From positions 1,116,001 to 1,180,000 of the forward strand of contig NZ_JAATJL010000001.1 of the NCBI RefSeq assembly GCF_011927905.1: a DNA stretch of 64,000 nucleotides. The letters run 5' to 3'. Numbering within the stretch: position 1 is the stretch's first letter; every line of letters begins with the position of its first letter. Made by a program: the position numbers and the translations under genes. The notes beneath the pieces are model-generated. The model was given only the letters and a program-made list of their open reading frames with translations, had not been told where the DNA came from and ran no database searches. The DNA is from Arthrobacter pigmenti. Its GTDB lineage: Bacteria > Actinomycetota > Actinomycetes > Actinomycetales > Micrococcaceae. Shown here piece by piece: positions 44,099 to 45,462 of this stretch.

Positions 44099-45462
44099 GT
44101 GAGACCGGCCACTCCGTTCAGGGCGGTTTCCCGCCCAAAGATGCTAAGGGAGGTGGCAGGGGCCCCGATCGGCAGCTTGCTGACGATCGGGGGGGCCACC
44201 GAGCGCGAACCCCGGAAACCGCCCTGGACTCCGCGCCCGGCACCGCATCAGCCCTCGTTGAGCCGGCGATGGGTAAGGAGTGGCTTCGGCGGTACTCGAA
44301 CTCCGTGCTCGGCGTGTTCGGGGCGCCGCAGCGTGTGCTCGTGCGCGGTGCCGGCTGCCTGGTCTGGGACGCTGACGGCAAACAGTACCTGGACCTGCTG
44401 GGCGGCATCGCGGTGAACGCGCTCGGCCATGCGCATCCCTTCGTCACGTCGGTGATCTCCTCGCAACTGGCAACGCTGGGACACGTCTCAAACTTCTTCA
44501 CGAGCCCCACGCAGGTGGCCCTCGCCGAGAGGCTCCTGCAGCTCGCCGGTGCCCCGGACGGCTCAAAGGTGTTCTTCGCGAACTCAGGTACCGAAGCGGT
44601 CGAGGCCGCCTTCAAGCTCGCGCGCCGCAACAGTACGCCGAAGCGCAGCCGGATCCTGGCACTTGAAGGCGGATTCCACGGCCGAACCATGGGAGCCCTG
44701 GCGCTCACGTCGAAACAGGCTTACCGGGAGTCGTTCGAACCGCTCCCGGGCGGGGTGGAGCACCTTCCCTTCGACGATGTGGAGGCTTTGGAGGCTGCGG
44801 TCGATGAGTCTGTTGCCGCCGTCGTCCTCGAGCCCATCCAGGGTGAAGCAGGAGTCCGGCCGCTGCGCGCCTCCTACCTCCAGCGGGCACGCGAACTCAC
44901 CACGCAAGCGCGCGCGTTGTTGATCCTCGACGAGGTACAGACCGGTGTCGGACGTACCGGACGGTGGTTCGCGCACCAGGGCAGCGGCATCACACCGGAT
45001 GCCATGACCCTGGCCAAGGGGCTGGGTGGCGGCTTTCCCGTCGGAGCCCTGATCACTTTCGGCCCGGATGTCTCAGGACTGCTGACCGCTGGTCAGCACG
45101 GCACCACTTTCGGCGGCAACCCGGTCGCCACGGCTGCGGCGCTTGCAACCCTCCATGCGCTTGAGGCGGGCGCTGTACTGCAGAACGCCAACGACGTCGG
45201 CGCGTTCCTGCGAGAGCATCTCGCCGCCGTCGGCGGTGTGGTCGATGTCCGGGGTGACGGACTGCTCATCGGATTCGACCTCGACGGCGAATATGCTGCC
45301 GCCGCGGTGCAGGAGGCGCTTACGCAGGGGTTCATCATCAATGCGCCCACGCCGCTCACATTGCGTCTGGCACCGCCGCTGATCCTGACCAGGAGCGAAG
45401 CGCAGGGTTTCCTCGACGCGCTGCCCGCCATCCTGACGACCGCCAAGGAGAGACCAGCATGA
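44095..45462 (+). CDS. argD: Acetylornithine aminotransferase, carrying an in-frame N-terminal insertion
   Basis: A 455-aa PLP enzyme, arginine step 4. Domain landmarks: [42 protein letters not shown] and the lysine in [11 protein letters not shown]. The N-terminus before EWLRRYSNS is about 60 residues, much longer than usual. Residues ~8-46 come from a palindromic insertion (44111-44233); deleting one direct repeat plus the insert restores [16 protein letters not shown] in frame. ATG 44269 is a possible internal start but lacks a Shine-Dalgarno. GTGA overlap with argB; ATGA overlap with argF. Confidence 0.95.
44117..44227. mobile_element. Putative in-frame palindromic element inside argD
   Basis: 111 bp flanked by the direct repeat ACTCCG (44111-44116 and 44228-44233), giving a net insertion of 117 bp, exactly 39 codons. 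The ends form an inverted repeat, CAGGGCGGTTTCC (44119-44131) with GGAAACCGCCCTG (44214-44226). Inside is a second hairpin: GGTGGC/GCCACC (44152-44157, 44195-44200), CCCCGATCG/CGATCGGGG (44163-44171, 44184-44192), CAGC/GCTG at the tip. Third-position GC is about 63 percent, lower than the rest of the gene. No stop codon and no ORF of its own. Confidence 0.65.

Follow-up and report, generated by a model that had tools for sequence, protein, structure and literature searches.

The argD locus and anatomy of the extra segment

The window analysed here is the whole stretch of 64,000 nucleotides of Arthrobacter pigmenti DNA, in which the argB stop and the GTG start of argD overlap by 4 nt according to the ORF call. 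Shortly after this start, argD contains a segment built of nested inverted repeats which lies between two copies of the hexamer ACTCCG (Table 1). This arrangement had been described in a first-pass annotation, with outer arms of 13 bp (16 bp if one mismatch is allowed) and an inner hairpin, and it was confirmed from the sequence, as was the net length of 117 bp, i.e. 39 codons in the argD frame without a stop.

Table 1 Features of argD and of the segment near its start (positions in the window)
Feature	Position	Strand	Description	Basis
argD, acetylornithine aminotransferase	44095..45462	+	455 aa from GTG	ORF call
Extra segment, most likely a lineage-specific insertion	44117..44233	+	117 bp, 39 codons, residues 8-46	Spacer comparison, empty-site alignment
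Left outer arm CAGGGCGGTTTCC	44119..44131	+	13 bp perfect; 16 bp from 44116 with one mismatch	
Right outer arm GGAAACCGCCCTG	44214..44226	+	13 bp perfect; 16 bp to 44229 with one mismatch	
Inner hairpin	44152..44200	+	Stems of 6, 9 and 3 bp	Fold
Direct repeat ACTCCG, left copy	44111..44116	+	Inside 9-bp in-register flank 44110-44118	
Direct repeat ACTCCG, right copy	44228..44233	+	Inside 9-bp in-register flank 44227-44235	

The segment is short and without a transposase gene, and it bears perfect 13-bp terminal inverted repeats (108 bp overall). The longer arm pair comprises positions 44116-44131 and 44214-44229, and its single mismatch is a G.U pair in RNA. The two ACTCCG copies are set off from the perfectly inverted ends, by 2 nt on the left and 1 nt on the right, and the hexamer occurs a third time at 44300. 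When the flanks were compared in register over 9 bp, six of the nine positions were identical. The same 117 bp are removed under three parsings, in which the duplication is 6 bp and the element 111 bp long (as in the first-pass annotation), 7 bp (one mismatch) and 110 bp, or 9 bp (6/9) and 108 bp. The calculated fold of the segment had an energy of -66.7 kcal/mol (z -3.6); 200 shuffled sequences averaged -52.65, and none of them was as stable. In the protein, Pfam Aminotran_3 spans residues 80-447, with the segment upstream of it, and the alignment with 7nn1, the best solved-structure match to ArgD, begins at residue 65, also after the segment.

Comparison of the argB-argD junction with relatives

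The argD region was matched in 37 of 38 genomes of the genus, A. pigmenti included (G029 gave no match), and the argB-argD spacer was read in 29 of the 36 matching relatives. The species itself was represented by one genome assembly in all comparisons of the segment, which leaves a small chance of an assembly error. In all 29 relatives the argD start lies 4 nt inside argB, and the distance from argB to the ArgD core ranges from 83 to 251 nt. A tree was built from ArgB together with the N-terminal 240 residues of the ArgD core with 29 rows including A. pigmenti, L034 being left out (genes not read whole); A. pigmenti clustered with six genomes (support 100/98), which also formed a group alone (90/94). 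The spacers of this sister clade measure 92, 95, 95, 98, 98 and 98 nt, compared with 212 nt in A. pigmenti, and subtraction of the 117 bp gives 95 nt, within the sister-clade range. The earlier claim that excision restores a normal short ArgD N-terminus was thus borne out in terms of length.

The translation of the empty site matches the tails of the sister clade from about ASALVEPA onward. Upstream of the segment the N-termini can scarcely be aligned, and the precise breakpoints were therefore taken from the repeats. Among 25 spacers for which folding was scored, that of A. pigmenti was the lowest (z -2.55), the next being -0.36. The spacer of one relative (L018, 251 nt) exceeds that of A. 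pigmenti, and its excess is without foldable structure (z 0.22), which indicates that gain of length by routes other than palindromes also occurs. In the close pair formed by L018 and L019, the ArgD-tail spacers differ by 54 nt (251 vs 197 nt) and contain Thr/Gly-rich low-complexity sequence. Since length has changed in other lineages of the genus as well, the ArgD tail was regarded as a tolerant site.

Because the sister spacers of 92-98 nt stand against 212 nt, the extra segment would most likely represent a single discrete insertion on the branch of A. pigmenti, and the comparative spacer data are the decisive support for this reading beyond the repeats alone. Several expectations of the first-pass annotation can be judged from these lengths. 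A segment common to all relatives is contradicted by the short spacers of the sister clade. That relatives should lack exactly 117 bp held to within 3 nt for the six sisters; the spacers of the 29 relatives at large range over 83-251 nt. As to an insertion with target-site duplication, the discrete and lineage-specific event stood, while the duplication was reduced to a possibility, the ACTCCG copies being offset from the arms and the in-register match being 6/9.

Chance expectation and codon use

In 150 Markov simulations, perfect inverted repeats of 13 bp with a total span of 60-125 bp arose on average 0.17 times per 64 kb, so the inverted repeat by itself is weak evidence and does not decide the matter. 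When 108-bp intervals were drawn at random from the window (40,000 draws), the probability that a 6-bp direct repeat lies no more than 3 nt from each end was 0.0068. For the 6/9 in-register flank match the probability was 0.023, or 0.034 if lengths of 8, 9 or 10 bp were permitted.

The first-pass annotation had also proposed a protein-coding mini-element, on which the codon data bear. An open frame of 39 codons is found with a probability of 0.39 in random sequence of the same composition, and it says nothing for a protein-coding element; selection on argD would keep only in-frame events anyway. The lower third-position GC content noted earlier was verified (0.64 in the insert vs 0.80 in six arg genes). 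The CAI-like codon score was 0.519, compared with a mean of 0.702 for arg-gene windows, and only 0.05% of 1924 overlapping 39-codon windows from the six arg genes, which were also the source of the weights, scored as low. In the argD frame the insert does not look as though it had been shaped as coding sequence, and its codon use fits DNA that has been under coding selection for a short time at most. The proposal of a protein-coding element was not upheld.

Search for other copies

In the A. pigmenti genome (3.79 Mb) the insert was single-copy by BLASTN, and the element was absent at E<=0.001 from all 37 other genomes of the genus. No full-length match to the A. pigmenti copy was found by BLASTN in 395 genomes of the family and 396 of the order, A. 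pigmenti being included in these counts (two candidates scored per genome). Short weak matches occurred in 29 of 394 other family genomes and 7 of 395 other order genomes, again with two candidates scored per genome. The nested structure was absent from their loci (29 family loci inspected by eye, 7 order loci folded); for one of the 29, L044, the locus was cut and the printed stretch missed the match. By eye, the weak-match loci mostly look like coding sequence. At E<=10, plasmids gave 13 records (best E 0.3) and phages 3 (best E 1), none of which covers 80% of the element. A covariance model, run under strict filters with at most 88 candidates per genome, recovered the A. pigmenti copy; in 42 other genomes, of which 26 belong to the genus, no match had an E value below 0.4, and two weaker matches stood at 0.41 and 0.66. 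The view of the insert as a member of a mobile element family is therefore not supported, since single-copy status in its own genome, absence from the 37 other genus genomes and a covariance model whose only match below E 0.4 across 43 genomes is the insert itself all speak against it. The first-pass annotation had itself listed the lack of other copies as evidence against mobility, and such a lack is what was found within the genomes searched.

The outer arms were also searched as patterns. The exact arm pair GGGCGGTTTCC...GGAAACCGCCC was found in four stretches of genome_contigs, with interiors unrelated to the insert, and nowhere in viral_contigs, where two interior patterns were also absent. 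Similar long palindromes starting GTAGGGCGGTTTCCGC are present in Pseudoduganella rivuli (L069:6148-6248 and L070:4721-4822); they have the arm of the insert in common and not its interior, and they may belong to a GTAG-tagged repeat family, an idea taken from a passage in PMC3733652. In the A. pigmenti genome the 13-base arm was met with up to two mismatches at 289 places, compared with 106 for a reversed control (about 2.7-fold). This excess may stem from codon composition, and it counts against the arm being unique. On the forward strand, the arm is exact only in the window, and nine more places have one mismatch. Pairs of CAGGGC...GCCCTG with gaps of 85-115 bp numbered 34 vs 26 in the control, and by eye the 13 identical end bases were seen only in the pair of the window. 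As a separate observation, the window has just one other perfect 13-bp inverted repeat with a span of up to 125 bp, a compact hairpin at 9182-9211 (GCAAAGGGCCCGC/GCGGGCCCTTTGC), which sits 24 nt past the ORF at 8717-9157 and is probably a transcription terminator.

Origin of the insert

What was observed directly is the extra segment, its frame and the lack of it in the relatives that were read or searched. Mobility is read from anatomy alone, because no second copy or source was found where searched. We hold, with moderate confidence, that a small non-autonomous MITE-like palindrome of outside origin was inserted once, is translated through and is harmless. Such a palindromic segment would have entered argD a single time on the branch of the species, presumably by transposition in trans, and a few target bases would have been duplicated. 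Since element and duplication together make 117 bp with an open frame, a ribosome starting at the argB/argD overlap would read through the insert and add 39 residues, which would join an already variable N-terminal tail outside the enzyme fold. The insert would have been kept because it is harmless and not through a function. That it is probably tolerated and not functional follows from the off-bias codons, the position ahead of the aminotransferase fold and a tail varying over 83-251 nt. Judged from sequence, it may be seen as an orphan MITE-like insertion that is ordinary in kind. The case is a clean one, in which palindromic DNA, apparently non-coding in origin, is now part of the gene of a housekeeping enzyme while the short form of argD is present in six sister species, and it points to what can make such an insertion tolerable, namely a tail that varies in length and precedes the fold.

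A specific form of the MITE-like explanation is that the insert is a miniature derivative of the ISAs1 family, moved in trans by an ISAs1 transposase, with ends CAGGG...CCCTG at 44119-44226 and a decayed 9-bp duplication. According to a passage in PMC11946415, ISAs1 ends start with CAGGG, are 14-22 bp long and are accompanied by a 10-bp repeat; for ISArsp11 of an Arthrobacter plasmid, an end CAGGGCTGATGCAAAGTCG and a 10-bp repeat are given in part of PMC6305408. The ends of the insert start with CAGGG as well (44119 and 44226), and ends such as CAGGGCGGCTGCAAAGTC and CAGGGCCTTTTCAAAGTC were seen at ISAs1 loci of the same bacterial family. Altogether 30 ISAs1 loci of this family and 30 of the class were read. 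Ends were called by script at 34 of these 60 loci, in some cases clearly by chance, and a perfect duplication accompanied 19 of the 34 (10 bp long in 16 and 9 bp in 3); the locus L090 has the end CAGGGCCTTTTCAAAGTC and a 9-bp duplication. The arm of the insert agrees with the best ISAs1 end at 10 of 13 positions (P 0.005 for a random 13-mer of the window against 27 typed ends), and a 108-bp element with a 9-bp duplication gives 117. However, the family was chosen after the ends had been seen, so this P value and those of the flank match are optimistic. The AAAGTC/AAAGTT-like inner motif common to most called ISAs1 ends is missing from the insert, the usual duplication is 10 and not 9 bp, and the in-register flanks of the insert match at only 6/9. 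Moreover, PF13808, the ISAs1 transposase domain, had no match in the A. pigmenti genome and none in the genus among 245 family and 394 class genomes, 15 genus genomes (A. pigmenti included) being among those listed. The search for an autonomous partner covered the transposase domains PF13808 and PF01609 as well as the ends, and among 30 genus loci with DDE_Tnp_1 (PF01609), including three of the five in A. pigmenti, none had ends that both matched the arm with two mismatches or fewer. The ISAs1 derivation is thus tentative and on balance unlikely, and ISAs1-type ends are the best lead to the source of the insert.

It is quite improbable that the insert is instead a fragment of another gene, palindromic by chance, which was captured in reverse orientation when a break was rejoined at short microhomology. 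On the minus strand (44110-44235), the antisense frame in codon register with argD has a near-gene codon score of 0.674; among 3000 random sequences with the composition of the window, 0.27% had a best frame, out of six, that scored as high. A family genome (G188) has a 39-nt DNA match of 85% identity (E 1.6e-5 for that genome, one of 395 searched), and by eye its minus strand and that of the insert have an ATSLxIxGRET-like stretch in common. Against this, antisense frames of true arg genes reach 0.674 in 15% of windows, and the three of six frames submitted to Pfam/NCBIfam gave no match up to E 10. Apart from the insert itself, the best match to the minus-strand peptide in 197 family genomes had an E value of 0.0217, and plasmids gave a single record, at E 2. 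A near-identical donor was not found in the A. pigmenti genome, and nested inverted repeats are unexpected for a gene fragment.

Very doubtful, too, is the idea of a young actinobacterial palindromic element, moved in trans by an ISAs1-like transposase now lost or outside the searched genomes and able to run through proteins in frame, which would be a counterpart of the Rickettsia palindromic elements (RPEs) at its first landing. The argD insert by itself does not establish a new element family.

Drift of the ArgD tail in length and sequence without a discrete insertion, the repeats being coincidental, would be in keeping with the variability of the tail within the genus (83-251 nt, and 251 vs 197 nt in the L018/L019 pair); it is highly improbable in view of the uniform 92-98 nt in the six nearest relatives, an extra length that forms a repeat-bounded unit, the lowest fold z of the 25 spacers scored (-2.55), and a hairpin, direct repeat and off-bias codons that all coincide on one segment. 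A regulatory RNA at the argB-argD junction, tuning argD by translational coupling or attenuation, would suit a strong, independently folding hairpin whose outer arm starts about 21 nt past the first base of the start codon, and is hardly credible because BLASTN found no counterpart of the hairpin in the 37 other genus genomes, Rfam gave no hit within the insert at E<=5 (a single hit below threshold, 16.4 bits vs 93, falls outside it at 44335-44425), and terminator-like or promoter-like sites were absent from 43800-44600.

Comparison with known systems

The likeness to known systems was assessed with parts of PMC10969869, PMC6305408, PMC11946415, PMC2694212 and PMC3733652; a limited literature search found no account of palindromic elements inserted in frame in Arthrobacter or related bacteria. 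REP and GTAG-tagged palindromes, described in a passage of PMC3733652 as short and sometimes intragenic, differ from the insert, which is longer and unrepeated and ends in neither a GTAG nor a CGTC tag. With ISAs1 elements the insert has in common ends that start with CAGGGC and an arm matching some ends from the same bacterial family at 10/13, but the AAAGTC-like inner motif is absent, PF13808 is absent from the genome, and the flanks agree at 6/9.

The insert is MITE-like in its size of about 110 bp, its terminal inverted repeats, the direct repeats near its edges, the lack of a transposase and its in-frame fusion with a host gene; in-frame fusions of such elements with host genes are not unusual according to a section of a review (PMC10969869). 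Unlike MITEs, it is single-copy, with no family or autonomous partner found in the genomes searched. Compared with the target-site duplication of MITEs, ACTCCG is exact on both sides but is separated from the perfect arms by 2 nt on the left and 1 nt on the right.

The RPEs, on whose logic the first-pass annotation had drawn, are likewise palindromes of similar size found in frame inside metabolic genes. They are, however, many-copy families with a conserved peptide in the account given in part of PMC10969869, whereas the insert is one copy with no shared peptide in the genomes searched. The parallel with a family of copies and a common peptide is therefore not supported, and the likeness to RPEs is in one respect only, the in-frame tolerance of a palindrome inside a protein.
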